Source: a virus
DNA length: 25,402 nt
Reading direction: 5' to 3' (one strand)
Virus record (IMG/VR): IMGVR_UViG_3300032116_001200
Span: 1 to 25,402 of that record
This document shows positions 2,112 to 5,203 of this stretch, in pieces. Within the stretch, counting starts at the first letter, position 1, and each line of letters opens with the position of its first letter. The notes under the pieces were generated by a model. It was not told where the DNA came from, did no database searches, and saw nothing but the letters and a program-made list of their open reading frames with translations. The translations under genes and the position numbers were made by a program.

Positions 2112-2463
2112 ACAAGGCGACAGATTAAGCGCCGAACAAGTGCGGGATGTGTTGCTGGCGATCGGCAAAGAAACCCTCAATACAACCGCTAAACGGGTAG
2201 ACCGGACAGCATGGGTGATCTCTCAGATTCAACGAGGGCAGAAATACGCGGACGTGCATCCTGAGCTGCCTCGTCGGCCAGGTCGTCCCAAAAGGCGGCA
2301 TGCTCCCCAGCCGACTGCTGGGGAGCCGTCGTGCAGGATCTGCCAGCATTGGATCGAGGAACCAGAACCAGGCCGGCCGCCGTGCGATCTGGGCCTGCCT
2401 GATGTCCACGAGGTTGGGCTGGGATTTGCAACAGAATGCAACCTCTACCAGATGCAGCGATGA
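2104..2463 (+). CDS. HTH plus Cys-cluster DNA-binding protein (119 aa)
   Basis: The start is the ATG at 2104, with GGAG 7 bases upstream inside the repeated junction. Residues 8-46 look like a helix-turn-helix of the Hin/NUMOD type (LSAEQVRDVLLAIGKE, then TAKRVDRTAWVISQIQRG). They are followed by a basic Pro/Arg linker resembling an AT-hook (PRRPGRPKRR, 56-65). A C-terminal cluster Cys77, Cys80, Cys94 and Cys112 could bind one zinc ion. The most likely role is a small phage transcription factor or DNA-binding accessory protein. The target is unknown, but it is encoded just upstream of the repeated promoter boxes, making it a reasonable candidate to act on them (inference). The stop overlaps the next start as ATGA. 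Confidence 0.72.
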   Translation: MARQGDRLSAEQVRDVLLAIGKETLNTTAKRVDRTAWVISQIQRGQKYADVHPELPRRPGRPKRRHAPQPTAGEPSCRICQHWIEEPEPGRPPCDLGLPDVHEVGLGFATECNLYQMQR

Positions 2464-2786
2464 GCAGTCCCAGCTGGCGGCAGTTCCGCGAGATCCCGTT
2501 TGATGCGACGGTCGCTGCCGTGGTCAAAGCCCTGGATCTGGAGATCCCCGATGAGGGCCGGCCCCGATCGTTCCGTGGGCCAAGGGGCCAGTTCCTCGCG
2601 TCCACCACTCAGGCTGGCGACTGGGTGGTATGCCATGGCGGGGAGAGCAGGTTTGTTGATGGCCCAGATGCAGTGAGGAGGGCTGCCATGCTGCCGGCCA
2701 GCACACCATCAGGCGATGCGCTCCGGCAGTGGCTCCGATGGTGGGGATGGGTGCCGCGATCGGAGCAGCGGCAGGCAACTGACTGA
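2460..2786 (+). CDS. Hypothetical protein (108 aa)
   Basis: The start is chosen at the ATG at 2460, which overlaps the upstream stop as ATGA; a slightly longer in-frame ATG at 2436 is less likely. The protein begins MSSPSWRQFREIPFDATVAA. It has a mixed alpha/beta pattern and a Trp-rich C-terminal helix (LRQWLRWWGWVP, residues 87-98). I do not recognise a family and see no membrane segment or metal site. It is the last gene of the first tightly coupled plus-strand run: the first promoter-like box overlaps its last codon. Confidence 0.6.
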   Translation: MSSPSWRQFREIPFDATVAAVVKALDLEIPDEGRPRSFRGPRGQFLASTTQAGDWVVCHGGESRFVDGPDAVRRAAMLPASTPSGDALRQWLRWWGWVPRSEQRQATD

Positions 2787-2803
2787 CACGATTGCGCTAC
2801 GCT
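2784..2803 (+). promoter_or_regulatory. Promoter-like box, copy 1
   Basis: GACACGATTGCGCTA followed by CGCT. The last six bases, TACGCT, fit a TAnnnT -10 element, and transcription would begin about 16 bases before the 70-aa zinc protein's ATG. It matches the copies at 3081 and 3421 at 15 of 17 positions in the box but lacks the downstream hairpin. No convincing -35 hexamer is seen, so the box itself may be bound by an activator or an alternative sigma factor. Confidence 0.5.
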
Positions 2804-2825
2804 GGCGAGCCACCACAACAGCAGA

Positions 2826-3038
2826 ATGGCCCCACTGACCAATGCGGAACGCTGCCAGCGCAGGCGAGATAGAGCGGCAGGGAGGCTGCCGGCCTGCGGT
2901 CCCTGCGCCAATGAATGCGGCCGGAACCACTACGGGATGCATGGGTCGCTGTGCTCGATCTGCTGGACCAACTGCACCGATGAGGGGCGAGCTGATCGAG
3001 CGAAGCGGGTGAAGCGTGCGACGCAGCGCAAGGCGTAG
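2826..3038 (+). CDS. Small zinc-ribbon protein A (70 aa)
   Basis: A very basic 70-aa protein. Residues 5-20 form an Arg-rich helix (TNAERCQRRRDRAAGR). Cys24, Cys27, Cys31 and the pair Cys43-x2-Cys46, with His35 and His39 between, suggest one zinc ribbon, followed by a second basic helix (RADRAKRVKRATQRK). The layout is shared with the protein at 4108-4377: AG.LP, a first Cys pair, CxxCW, then T(D)xGR and a basic helix. The two are therefore probably paralogues. It may bind nucleic acid; the family is common as an unassigned small phage protein. It is preceded by promoter-like box copy 1, and no Shine-Dalgarno sequence is obvious. Confidence 0.68.
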   Translation: MAPLTNAERCQRRRDRAAGRLPACGPCANECGRNHYGMHGSLCSICWTNCTDEGRADRAKRVKRATQRKA

Positions 3039-3042
3039 AGTA

Positions 3043-3101
3043 TTACAGATTGTGAACCGGTCGGGTAAGGGGGTGACCGGTAGACACGATCGCGCTAGTA
3101 T
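3043..3101 (+). promoter_or_regulatory. Promoter module, copy 2
   Basis: Two conserved boxes: TTACAGATTGTGA (3043-3055) and TAGACACGATCGCGCTA (3081-3097), the latter running into a TAnnnT -10 element, TAGTAT (3096-3101). The downstream box is identical over 17 bases to copy 3 at 3421. The expected start of transcription (about 3108) lies directly before the conserved hairpin. No standard -35 is evident; GGTGAC at 3072 is a weak candidate. Confidence 0.6.
3056..3081. repeat. 7-bp inverted repeat upstream of promoter copy 2
   Basis: ACCGGTC (3056-3062) and GACCGGT (3075-3081) are exact reverse complements separated by 12 bases, with half-site centres 19 bp apart (two DNA helical turns). It could be an operator for a dimeric regulator, or a weak RNA hairpin after the zinc protein gene (18 bases past its stop, no U-tract). 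It is absent at the other two promoter copies and accounts for the 8-bp longer spacing there. Confidence 0.45.
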
Positions 3102-3110
3102 GGGATCACC

Positions 3111-3126
3111 GGAGGGGAGTCCCTCC
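3111..3126 (+). promoter_or_regulatory. Conserved 5'-leader hairpin, copy 1
   Basis: GGAGGG-GAGT-CCCTCC, a perfect 6-bp stem with a tetraloop, starting 9 bases after the -10 element. The copy at 3451 has GGAAGG-GAGG-CCTTCC at the same distance. The G-C to A-T change in the fourth pair is compensatory, so the structure and not just the sequence appears to be maintained. It is too far (17 bases) from the ATG to act as a normal Shine-Dalgarno, so a 5'-end stabilising or regulatory role is more likely. Confidence 0.6.
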
Positions 3127-3143
3127 ATAACCCACCATCAAAA

Positions 3144-3341
3144 ATGGCTCGGACCACCAGCAAGCAACAAGCTCAAGTTCTCCCTGCATTTGCCGAACCC
3201 GGCTACTATTTTGAAACCCTTAAAGATGGCGTAGTGGTTGATAGCAAGTTTCAAAATCTCCGGCTTGCACTTGAATCTATCGAAAATTGGCCAGTTCATG
3301 AACACCACAAGGCTTCGGTAAGGCTCGCCAAATACGCCTGA
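3144..3341 (+). CDS. Hypothetical protein in a stand-alone cassette (65 aa)
   Basis: A 65-residue protein beginning MARTTSKQQAQVLPAF, with a predicted beta hairpin (YYFETLKDGVVVDSKF, residues 21-36), a helix (LRLALESIENW) and a basic end. Function is not recognised. Its base composition is visibly more AT-rich than its neighbours. It has its own promoter and leader hairpin upstream and an intrinsic terminator starting 8 bases after its stop. A single gene with its own signals and foreign composition fits the moron pattern of lambdoid phages: an independently expressed accessory gene, often host-altering or anti-defence. The translation start has no clear ribosome binding site. Confidence 0.68.
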   Translation: MARTTSKQQAQVLPAFAEPGYYFETLKDGVVVDSKFQNLRLALESIENWPVHEHHKASVRLAKYA

Positions 3342-3349
3342 CTTTCGCC

Positions 3350-3372
3350 GCCCCGGTCACCCGGGGCTTTTT
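3350..3372 (+). terminator. Intrinsic (rho-independent) terminator
   Basis: GCCCCGG (3350-3356), loop TCAC, CCGGGGC (3361-3367), then five T's. This is a perfect 7-bp GC stem with a U-tract, lying 8 bases after the stop of the 65-aa gene and just before promoter copy 3. It insulates the cassette from the next transcription unit. Confidence 0.9.
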
Positions 3373-3390
3373 CATGCCCTTGCCACAGTG

Positions 3391-3441
3391 TTACGGATTG
3401 TGACGCAACCACCCACGCACTAGACACGATCGCGCTAAGGT
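3391..3441 (+). promoter_or_regulatory. Promoter module, copy 3
   Basis: TTACGGATTGTGA (3391-3403) matches the upstream box of copy 2 at 12 of 13 positions. TAGACACGATCGCGCTA (3421-3437) is identical to copy 2 and leads into the -10-like TAAGGT (3436-3441). The two boxes are 17 bases apart here and 25 in copy 2. It lies directly after the terminator and is followed by the leader hairpin and the 95-aa gene. Confidence 0.6.
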
Positions 3442-3450
3442 AACTGCATC

Positions 3451-3466
3451 GGAAGGGAGGCCTTCC
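3451..3466 (+). promoter_or_regulatory. Conserved 5'-leader hairpin, copy 2
   Basis: GGAAGG-GAGG-CCTTCC, a perfect 6-bp stem and tetraloop placed 9 bases after the -10 element, exactly as at 3111-3126. One stem pair differs from that copy with both sides changed. The ATG follows 15 bases later. Confidence 0.6.
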
Positions 3467-3481
3467 ACCGCCATCGCACCC

Positions 3482-3769
3482 ATGGGAATCATCACCGACA
3501 CACTCCGCGCCAGCCTCCAGGATCTGGCCGCAGCCGATGCCCGCCTCTACCGGGGCCTGGCCGCCGAGCTGGAGGGCACCGCCCCCGCCCGGGCGCTGCC
3601 ACCCGCCACAGACGACGCCACGGACGAGGCCGTGACCGATGTCGTGACCGCGTTCAAAGCCGTTCGAGATTCAATGACTGAGGCGCAGTTCCTCAAGGTC
3701 TTTGAGAAAACGCCACAGATGAACGCCCTCTGGGATGCACTGATGCAACTGGAAGACGTCACCCGCTGA
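3482..3769 (+). CDS. Hypothetical protein (95 aa)
   Basis: An acidic, mostly helical protein beginning MGIITDTLRASLQDLAAADA, with a Pro/Ala/Thr linker near residues 35-45 (TAPARALPPATDD) between two helical halves. There are no Cys, no membrane segment and no recognised family. It is the first gene after promoter copy 3 and may head a unit that runs through the coiled-coil and zinc-ribbon genes to about 4750. GC-rich tandem repeats follow its stop. Confidence 0.6.
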   Translation: MGIITDTLRASLQDLAAADARLYRGLAAELEGTAPARALPPATDDATDEAVTDVVTAFKAVRDSMTEAQFLKVFEKTPQMNALWDALMQLEDVTR

Positions 3770-3806
3770 CCCCCACGGGCCCCCCACGGGCCCCCCACGG
3801 GGCCCC
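3770..3806 (+). repeat. GC-rich tandem repeat after the 95-aa gene
   Basis: Three near-perfect units of CCCCC(C)ACGGG(G), about 11 bases each, in the 66-base gap between two genes. GGGCCCCC segments are self-complementary, so the transcript could fold into alternative short hairpins. No T-run follows, so it is not a classical terminator. Confidence 0.85.
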
Positions 3807-3835
3807 ACATCACGCCTTCCCCCACCGCCACCGCC

Positions 3836-4078
3836 ATGGACCACGTCACATACGCCACCGACACTGAAACCGCCGCTCTGCTGGCCGAGGTGGACGCCCT
3901 GCTGGCCGAGGCGGACGCCACGGACGCACGGATCGAGGCGCTGCTGCGCACCGGCAGCACGGCGGTGGTGATGGCCGATCTGGCGCTGCAGATGGAGCTG
4001 GGCCGCCAGGAACTGGACCAGATCGAACGGGACCAGATGGCGATCCAGGCAGAGCTCGACGCGCTCGACGCGCCCTGA
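3836..4078 (+). CDS. Small coiled-coil protein (80 aa)
   Basis: An 80-residue acidic protein that is almost entirely predicted helix. Leu/Ile/Ala repeat at heptad spacing from residue 14 to the end (ALLAEVDALLAEADATDARI, then LGRQELDQIERDQMAIQAEL). It probably dimerises as a coiled coil. There are no Cys and no enzymatic motif. Similar small helical proteins are common in phage accessory arms, but I cannot name a family. It is separated from the preceding gene by the GC-rich repeat. Confidence 0.6.
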   Translation: MDHVTYATDTETAALLAEVDALLAEADATDARIEALLRTGSTAVVMADLALQMELGRQELDQIERDQMAIQAELDALDAP

Positions 4079-4107
4079 GGCGCCACTCACGACACCACCC
4101 CCGACCC

Positions 4108-4377
4108 ATGACCGACACCGCCACCCGCCGCGAACAGCTCGATCGCGCAGCCGCCAATGCCCGCGTCCGTCGCTGCCGGCTGCGACTGGCCGGCCTGCTG
4201 CCGCCCGTGCCCCGCTGTGTGGTCTGCGGGTGCCGTGCCACGGCCGCAGACCCAGATGAGTCGAGCCCCGTGTGCAGCAGCTGCTGGCGCCTCACCGACG
4301 CTGGCCGACAGTGGAATCGGGAGCGCGTGCGACTGGCTCGCCAGGCGCGCCGAACCGTCAGCGGGGGCGCAGAGTGA
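4108..4377 (+). CDS. Small zinc-ribbon protein B (89 aa)
   Basis: A basic 89-aa protein. An Arg-rich helix (residues 8-28) is followed by AGLLPPVP, Cys37-x2-Cys40, then Cys56-x2-Cys59-Trp, and a C-terminal basic helix (GRQWNRERVRLARQARR). The two Cys pairs 15 residues apart indicate a single zinc ribbon. It shares its plan with the 70-aa protein at 2826-3038, so the pair probably arose by duplication or was recruited twice. A nucleic-acid-binding role is likely from the basic helices; the target is unknown. Its stop overlaps the next candidate start as GTGA. Confidence 0.66.
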   Translation: MTDTATRREQLDRAAANARVRRCRLRLAGLLPPVPRCVVCGCRATAADPDESSPVCSSCWRLTDAGRQWNRERVRLARQARRTVSGGAE

Positions 4378-4562
4378 GCGCCCCACTTCCGCCACCAGGC
4401 CCAGAGCAACCCATCTGGATCACTACCCGCTGCGGATCCATCGGCCGCCTACGGTGGGCCAACAGTGACCCGAGTGGCACAGATGCGCACCTTGGCTGGC
4501 TCCGCTGGGGGCTATGCGGGATTGACTCCGGCTGGTTCAGAGAATCAATCCGCAGCAGCTAG
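4374..4562 (+). CDS. Hypothetical protein with GTG start (62 aa)
   Basis: This frame opens at a GTG that overlaps the preceding stop (GTGA), the same coupling style as the rest of the arm. It runs 62 codons: a Pro-rich N-terminus (APLPPPGPEQP) and a compact beta-like body with several Trp and Gly (IWITTRCGSIGRLRWAN, GWLRWGLCGIDSGW). No family is recognised. The following candidate gene overlaps it in another frame if that gene uses its first start, so at least one of the two has uncertain boundaries. Confidence 0.45.
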   Translation: MSAPLPPPGPEQPIWITTRCGSIGRLRWANSDPSGTDAHLGWLRWGLCGIDSGWFRESIRSS

Positions 4563-4752
4563 CCTCAGCCTGGATGTGATCAACCGAGACGGCGCCCCGG
4601 TGTGGCGCTGCTGCGTTGGTGGCCGCGTCGTTGCGGAAGGGCCCAGTGCCCCCGCTGTGTGCGCCGAGCTCAGCGCTCGGCGAGGATCGCCCAGCCGGTG
4701 CCCGGCCCCTCGACCATCCATCGAGGCCCCAGGTTGCGACGGCTGTAGCTGA
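4465..4752 (+). CDS. Hypothetical protein overlapping the convergent endolysin gene
   Basis: An open frame of up to 95 codons starting at GTG 4465; a GTG at 4576 would avoid overlap with the previous candidate. The segment LDVINRDGAPVWRCCVGGRV followed by VAEGPSAPAVCAEL looks like genuine protein (two beta strands and a helix). The last 27 codons run antisense through the end of the endolysin gene and are Pro/Ser/Cys-rich with no structure. This suggests that the natural 3' end was lost at the convergent junction, or that the gene simply reads into it. Function is unknown. Confidence 0.42.
   Translation: MTRVAQMRTLAGSAGGYAGLTPAGSENQSAAASLSLDVINRDGAPVWRCCVGGRVVAEGPSAPAVCAELSARRGSPSRCPAPRPSIEAPGCDGCS
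4662..4682. terminator. Hairpin at the convergent gene junction (possible bidirectional terminator)
   Basis: CGCCGAGC (4662-4669), loop TCAGC, GCTCGGCG (4675-4682): a perfect 8-bp stem readable on both strands. The loop contains the endolysin stop codon. Its place exactly where the two arms converge argues for a role in ending transcription or protecting RNA 3' ends, though no U-tract follows on either strand. Confidence 0.5.
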
Positions 4753-5203
4753 GCCCGGCCCCGTTGTTGGAGATGTATCCGCCCCGTCGTAGATCCAGGT
4801 CGCCGTAGGGGTCGTGAACGAGAATGGCGTCAGGCGTGTAGCCGATCGCGATGATCCAGTGGCCGCCACCTCCAGGCCTCGTGACCGGTCCTTGATGAAG
4901 CATGCCCAACGGCGTGGGAATGCCCCGGTTAATCTGGCCCTCGATCGTGCTCCAGTTCGCATTCTGAACGAACTTCGCCTTTACCCCATAGCTGGCGAGG
5001 GCCTTCAGCTGAGCCGCCGCAGCGGTGGTGTCACCGAACTGGCGCACCCTGGCCAGGAACTGGTCATCGCCGTTGGCCCCCTTCAGGGTGCCGGGCTTAA
5101 GCGACTCCAGCAGCATGGCGCAGCTAGAGCTGAAGCACATCCTGTAAGCCTGGCTGGAGGCGCTGTCCCGCTGGCTGTAGTAGGGGACCGAGAGGGTTTT
5201 CAT
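4670..5203 (-). CDS. C39-family peptidase endolysin
   Basis: A 177-residue papain-like cysteine peptidase of the C39_2 type, used by phages as a lysin that cuts peptidoglycan cross-links. Motifs are YYSQRD with Gln11 (oxyanion hole), MCFSSSCAM with Cys23 as the likely nucleophile (aligning with the family pattern CGPTSLAM), GGHWIIAIGY with His115, and VHDPYGD with Asp131. There is no signal peptide, so it should need a holin for export; two membrane-protein genes lie directly upstream in the same operon. Its start overlaps the upstream stop as ATGA. A role in tail-associated wall penetration is a less likely alternative. Confidence 0.85.
   Translation of the reverse strand: MKTLSVPYYSQRDSASSQAYRMCFSSSCAMLLESLKPGTLKGANGDDQFLARVRQFGDTTAAAAQLKALASYGVKAKFVQNANWSTIEGQINRGIPTPLGMLHQGPVTRPGGGGHWIIAIGYTPDAILVHDPYGDLDLRRGGYISNNGAGLSYSRRNLGPRWMVEGPGTGWAILAER

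Follow-up and report, generated by a model that had tools for sequence, protein, structure and literature searches.

Cyanophage infection is light-dependent, and little is known about how phage genes would sense light. Among the host regulators that cyanophages are already known to borrow are NtcA (nitrogen) and the Pho system, with NtcA and Pho-box promoters found in marine T4-like cyanophages (PMC3037559). In cyanobacteria, HLR1 (KTTACAWW-N2-KTTACAWW) is the site of the OmpR-type light/redox regulator RpaB (PMC13421787, PMC9241938) and activates at positions -66 to -45 (PMC13421787), and the -35 element is absent from most Synechocystis promoters (PMC9241938). No paper joining HLR1 or RpaB with cyanophage promoters was found in the open-access literature.

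The window analyzed here, the whole stretch of 25,402 nucleotides, is a virus fragment (25.4 kb) in which the minus strand encodes a lambda-type portal and a terminase and the plus strand carries small genes. The terminase is 75% identical to that of the freshwater Synechococcus phage S-LBS1, a likeness from which the host clade is read as probably freshwater picocyanobacteria. No isolate phage matched the region by BLAST. Two intergenic cassettes (3038-3143 and 3342-3481) each contain an upstream element, a 17-bp box, a TAnnnT -10 element, and a hairpin. The first cassette occupies the gap between the ORFs at 2826-3038 and 3144-3341 (plus strand, 65 aa; no relatives by protein search). The second lies between 3341 and the ORF at 3482-3769 (plus strand, 95 aa; homologues in L138, L300, L328, and L337), behind an intrinsic terminator on the plus strand at 3350-3372 (GCCCCGG-TCAC-CCGGGGC-TTTTT; stem-loop at 3350-3367, followed by the T tract). 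The same terminator was also present at the module of the relative L337 and in the host MAG contig L502. Beside these genes, an 11-bp GC-rich unit (CCCCCACGGGC) is repeated three times in tandem between two small genes at 3770-3806, and an 80-aa protein encoded at 3836-4078, which is 82% identical in L138 and shows a weak DUF6284 match, is a marker for the phage group. Elsewhere, an ACC/ACA triplet tract at 540-582 gives the ORF at 271-591 a poly-threonine end.

A sequence-only reading of this locus had described a repeated phage promoter module, and a direct check of the window found all the sequences that it named in their places. The 17-bp box (TAGACACGATCGCGCTA) is repeated exactly on the plus strand at 3081-3097 and 3421-3437. 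The third, diverged copy, placed here at 2783-2799, matches at 14 of 17 positions (three mismatches; 0.05 matches expected at that tolerance) and with its TACGCT (2783-2803, plus strand) precedes the ORF at 2826-3038; it has neither an upstream HLR1-like element nor a hairpin. The -10 elements, TAGTAT at 3096-3101 and TAAGGT at 3436-3441, are in the same register on the plus strand. Transcription would start at A3108 and A3448, 7 nt after the -10, as predicted from the spacing and a conserved purine. The hairpin begins exactly 30 nt from the start of the box in both full copies, so that the box-to-hairpin distance is equal, with the 13 intervening bases mostly different. Copy 2 has its upstream element 8 nt nearer. 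No consensus -35/-10 promoter (TTGACA-like -35, 16-18 nt from the -10) was found in 2400-4700, which agrees with the reported lack of a usual -35 at these modules.

A second box had been reported upstream of the first two 17-bp boxes, and its only exact matches in the window are TTACAGATTGTGA (3043) and TTACGGATTGTGA (3391). Read on the minus strand, the element is a direct repeat with a period of 10, which fits HLR1. Element 1 (TTCACAATCTGTAATACT; 3039-3056) places its second half-site 45 nt before the -10, and element 2 (GTCACAATCCGTAACACT; 3387-3404) lies 37 nt before it. When T or C was allowed at repeat position 2 (KTYACAWWN2KTYACAWW), the two elements matched at 13 and 14 of 16 positions, respectively, and strict comparison with the published HLR1 consensus gave 12/16 and 13/16, indicating a variant form. 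The phage elements are likewise HLR1 variants, many having TCACA or TCGCA in place of TTACA. With a PWM derived from relatives only, element 1 scored 26.4 bits, the best in the window (next, 12.6 bits), and element 2 scored weakly. Relative to the predicted starts, the elements would span -69 to -52 and -61 to -44, near the published activating range. The HLR1-like second box, a presumed RpaB site, is most likely the activator site of the module. RpaA or another regulator of the OmpR family could use the motif instead.

Host promoters carry a similar element. A search of 14 picocyanobacterial genomes with the T/C-allowed motif gave three matches (reversed control, 0), all directly upstream of hli-type (Chloroa_b-bind) genes, which are known RpaB targets; the T/C variant form occurs in these strict hli matches as well. 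At the psaD promoters of 13 of 13 picocyanobacteria (L441-L453), a 12/16 element (TGTTGACGGGTGTGAA) was found in the same orientation as in the phage, 46 nt (12 genomes) or 45 nt (1 genome) before TAG[CT]TT with a diverged spacer. A 12/16 match occurs by chance in 0.8% of random stretches or promoters, and the 13 genomes are related and do not represent 13 independent events. The host psaD elements are HLR1 variants, as are those of the phage. Strict HLR1 (at least 13/16) was not detected at host psa/PSI genes apart from one off-target match, and the phage-derived PWM did not clearly single out host PSI genes. As an observation on the hosts themselves, TGTTGACGGGTGTGAA at psaD is a likely RpaB site of picocyanobacteria.

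Relatives were first reached through the neighboring 80-aa gene, and a scan with the box of the relatives then gave 50 stretches. Together with prior loci, these provided 28 non-redundant modules, which were aligned without gaps into a sequence-only model (R1) containing no window sequence. In the window, R1 ranked 3038-3131 first (20.8 bits, E 4.9e-6) and 3387-3469 second (6.8 bits, E 0.11). Over 83 loci, R1 gave 87 matches, often two to four per contig and usually before a small ORF. The 69 distinct modules among them came from 34 loci, mostly freshwater cyanophage contigs, including L502, a contig of a Synechococcaceae MAG. The -10 was TAnnnT in all 67 unique modules tabulated. An HLR1-like element of at least 12/16 was present at a fixed 45-nt register in 66 of the 69 modules (65 when the best site had to lie at exactly 45 nt), a count that is partly circular, as the HLR1 region contributes to detection by R1. 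The 30 real modules found by box only, which are free of this circularity, scored 12-15/16 at the fixed register, and chance matches scored at most 11. One exception, L334:461, is a hairpin-bearing module without the HLR1-like element. The phages bearing the module differ in their portal (phrog_21 in the window, DUF4055 in G003), and no module was found by the model in S-LBS1, the nearest isolate by terminase. That the repeats are chance events or gene-conversion remnants without function is scarcely credible: the record has only two full copies, but a model built from other phages finds both, the hairpin covaries, and the spacing is fixed in dozens of phages. The pattern of box, 5'-leader hairpin, and missing -35 recurs throughout the 69 modules, which confirms by sequence comparison that the original observation was real, belongs to a family, and is more general than could be seen from one stretch.

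In one class of modules, the leader extends to an RNA of approximately 60 nt that is 93% conserved (L328:10460-10520, L306:740-800, L150:5896-5956, and 11 more; alignment A6). This RNA contains a putative H-type pseudoknot (CGCC..CGGCY..GGCG..RGCCG), in which the Y-R pair covaries, and a further hairpin. It has no Rfam match and is a candidate new structured leader RNA. Its blastn match in the cyanophage S-2L lies at 5102-5156, and S-2L was the only isolate phage in which BLAST matched the modules, through this leader RNA.

The 17-bp box itself is constant within one phage and differs between phages. In the relatives it reads CCGTAACrG....GCTACnnT, in modules of otherwise the same anatomy, and the window box aligns to GTA-ACGGACCGGCTAC of the relatives with a 3-nt insert. 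The exact 15-mer of the window box gave 52 single matches across viral contigs, none of them a repeated module. By reading, the NtcA site GTA-N8-TAC is absent from the window modules, and the relatives have GTA-N10-TAC inside the box. Since the box is constant within a phage but variable between phages, and since the copy at 2783 stands without element or hairpin, it is most plausibly a core-promoter element particular to each phage, for which a host sigma factor, a phage sigma factor, and a repressor are the candidate readers. It had been proposed that the box may replace the -35 as a target of an activator or an alternative sigma factor. This proposal can be refined: the activator role most likely falls to the second box; for the 17-bp box, a role for a phage sigma factor or phage regulator is more likely because other phages differ at the box. 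Two other readings were rejected. For sigma-54, the GG/GC spacing is off by one, and cyanobacteria are not known to have sigma-54. For a T7-like single-subunit polymerase, no such gene was seen, and the -10/HLR1 spacing suits the host polymerase.

It is a serious possibility that a phage-encoded sigma-70 reads the box and -10, in which case the HLR1-like element would have a secondary, modulating role or be the target of a different host regulator. Region 2 of sigma-70 was matched in 6 of 18 module-bearing records (4 over the cut-off), two of which have regions 1.2, 2, and 3 or 4, and S-LBS1 and S-2L carry annotated sigma factors. The box also occurs once, at 2783, without element or hairpin, and is phage-specific in sequence as described above. 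In S-2L (MW334946, L511; 2400-5950, minus strand), another promoter-like repeat (CGTGCTTTAATAG) occurs seven times before small genes, most copies following ATTGCGC and most having a 5' hairpin, and only one copy has an HLR1-like element. On the other hand, no sigma gene was found in this 25-kb record, which is itself a fragment, and the element keeps its spacing in 66 of 69 modules and is therefore not a bystander.

The exact repeats of the 17-bp box overlap the promoter, as would be expected if the box were the operator of a phage repressor acting in immunity or timing. Its core is near-palindromic (CGATCG here, CCGTAACGG in the relatives), it differs between phages like heteroimmune operators, and S-LBS1 has an integrase. 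However, no repressor gene was seen in the window and the palindrome is broken in the third copy (GATTGC), which makes an operator quite improbable.

The hairpins had been described as 6-bp stems nine bases past each -10 that differ by a compensatory change. Both were present on the plus strand exactly 9 nt after the -10: GGAGGG-GAGT-CCCTCC at 3111-3126 (-11.8 kcal/mol) and GGAAGG-GAGG-CCTTCC at 3451-3466 (-10.5 kcal/mol). Perfect 6-4-6 hairpins number 16 in the window, or 0.06% of positions. The sequence following the -10 was folded for 32 modules and gave a mean of -9.9 kcal/mol, compared with -6.4 for shuffled sequences and -1.9 just downstream. Of the 67 tabulated modules, 42 have an uninterrupted stem; among these are 34 different hairpins, which mostly begin 9 nt past the -10. 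In the other 25, judged by reading, a mismatch or a small internal loop breaks most stems, and one module is truncated at its contig end. In the 6-4-6 class, 98.5% of cells are paired, and at three pairs both partners vary. The covariation was 0.470 versus 0.240 for shuffled alignments, with 0 of 500 shuffles reaching the observed value, and slid controls gave at most 0.152. The pairing is kept in the relatives at the same offset, an outcome in favor of the earlier reading, which had named loss of pairing in related phages as a refutation. Because the hairpin sequences vary yet mostly pair, with covariation, these data point to a function as RNA rather than as a DNA operator. A general count of TAnnnT, hairpin, and ORF in 14 loci gave no enrichment over controls; therefore, a hairpin plus -10 alone is not diagnostic. 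No Rfam match reached the gathering score in the window or 12 relatives, and 3030-3500 gave only chance-level matches. Shine-Dalgarno sequestration was rejected, as the stem lies at least 15 nt from the start codon and the SD-like strand still further.

Messenger RNAs such as ompA are stabilized by a stem-loop that lies within a few bases of the 5' end. Lambda boxB is a small GC-rich stem with a GNRA-like loop near the 5' end. The phage hairpins, with small GC-rich stems and loops that are often GNRA (GAGA, GAAA, GGAA), resemble boxB, and a terminator is present between the cassettes. They might therefore act in transcription or RNA-protein binding, as in boxB-like antitermination or recognition by a phage RNA-binding protein, instead of in stability. 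This is unlikely, as the stems and loops of the 34 distinct hairpins vary widely, unlike a sequence-specific protein site, and each cassette has its own promoter. In model bacteria, RNase E-driven mRNA decay depends strongly on the 5' end (PMC10989914), and so 5' protection would be the most economical use of the hairpin. The hairpin most likely shields the mRNA 5' end from RNase E decay; other uses of a 5' hairpin are possible.

In summary, the modules are probably phage promoters that lack a -35, respond to RpaB, imitate host photosystem promoters, and provide the mRNA with a protective 5'-terminal hairpin. Each cassette would form an independent transcription unit, early or accessory, of a phage of freshwater picocyanobacteria, with a terminator closing at least the first. 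Host RpaB would bind the HLR1-like element approximately 45-70 bp upstream of the start and recruit RNA polymerase to the -35-less promoter, in the manner of psaD and other photosystem I promoters of the host. Directly ahead of the -10, the phage-specific box would give the core promoter its specificity, and its reader may be a sigma factor that the phage encodes. The predicted mRNA would open with three unpaired bases, followed by the GC-rich hairpin that may guard it from host RNase E. Such promoters would be expected to be on in low light or darkness and down in high light, and the arrangement suggests that the phage links some of its genes to the light status of the host. More tentatively, and with rather low confidence, a promoter-leader system combining redox control through the RpaB site, the box with a phage sigma factor, and a protective covarying hairpin may be common to distinct freshwater cyanophage lineages (S-2L in part), so that infection would be light-gated for each small gene. 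With an RpaB-type site in a position like that at a photosystem I gene of the host, phage transcription can be tested directly for light control, and the covarying 5' hairpin offers a small natural leader whose effect on mRNA stability can be examined in cyanobacteria.

Among known systems, RpaB/HLR1-activated promoters (psaD and other PSI genes) share with the module a period-10 HLR1-like repeat at approximately -45 to -69, the absence of a -35, and a TAnnnT -10, and psaD of the 13 picocyanobacteria also shares the orientation and spacing of the element. Unlike them, the module is phage-borne, adds a phage-specific box, and yields an mRNA that would open with a conserved hairpin. The HLR1 of hli genes is of the same motif type, with strict matches in the hosts, but it lies at the start region and represses, whereas the phage element is upstream in an activating position. 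The NtcA and Pho-box promoters of marine T4-like cyanophages similarly borrow a host regulator, but for nitrogen or phosphate, in other phages, and with no 5' hairpin module described (PMC3037559). In the S-2L array, too, small genes are preceded by a repeated phage-specific box with a -10 and then a 5' hairpin, and one copy has the HLR1-like element; the array differs in box sequence, and most copies lack that element. The ompA-type stem-loop likewise lies close to the mRNA 5' end, but the phage hairpin accompanies a repeated promoter and recurs in many phages. The strongest new element, judged from sequence, appears to be an upstream site that resembles host RpaB-type promoters both in itself and in its spacing, joined to a covarying leader hairpin.
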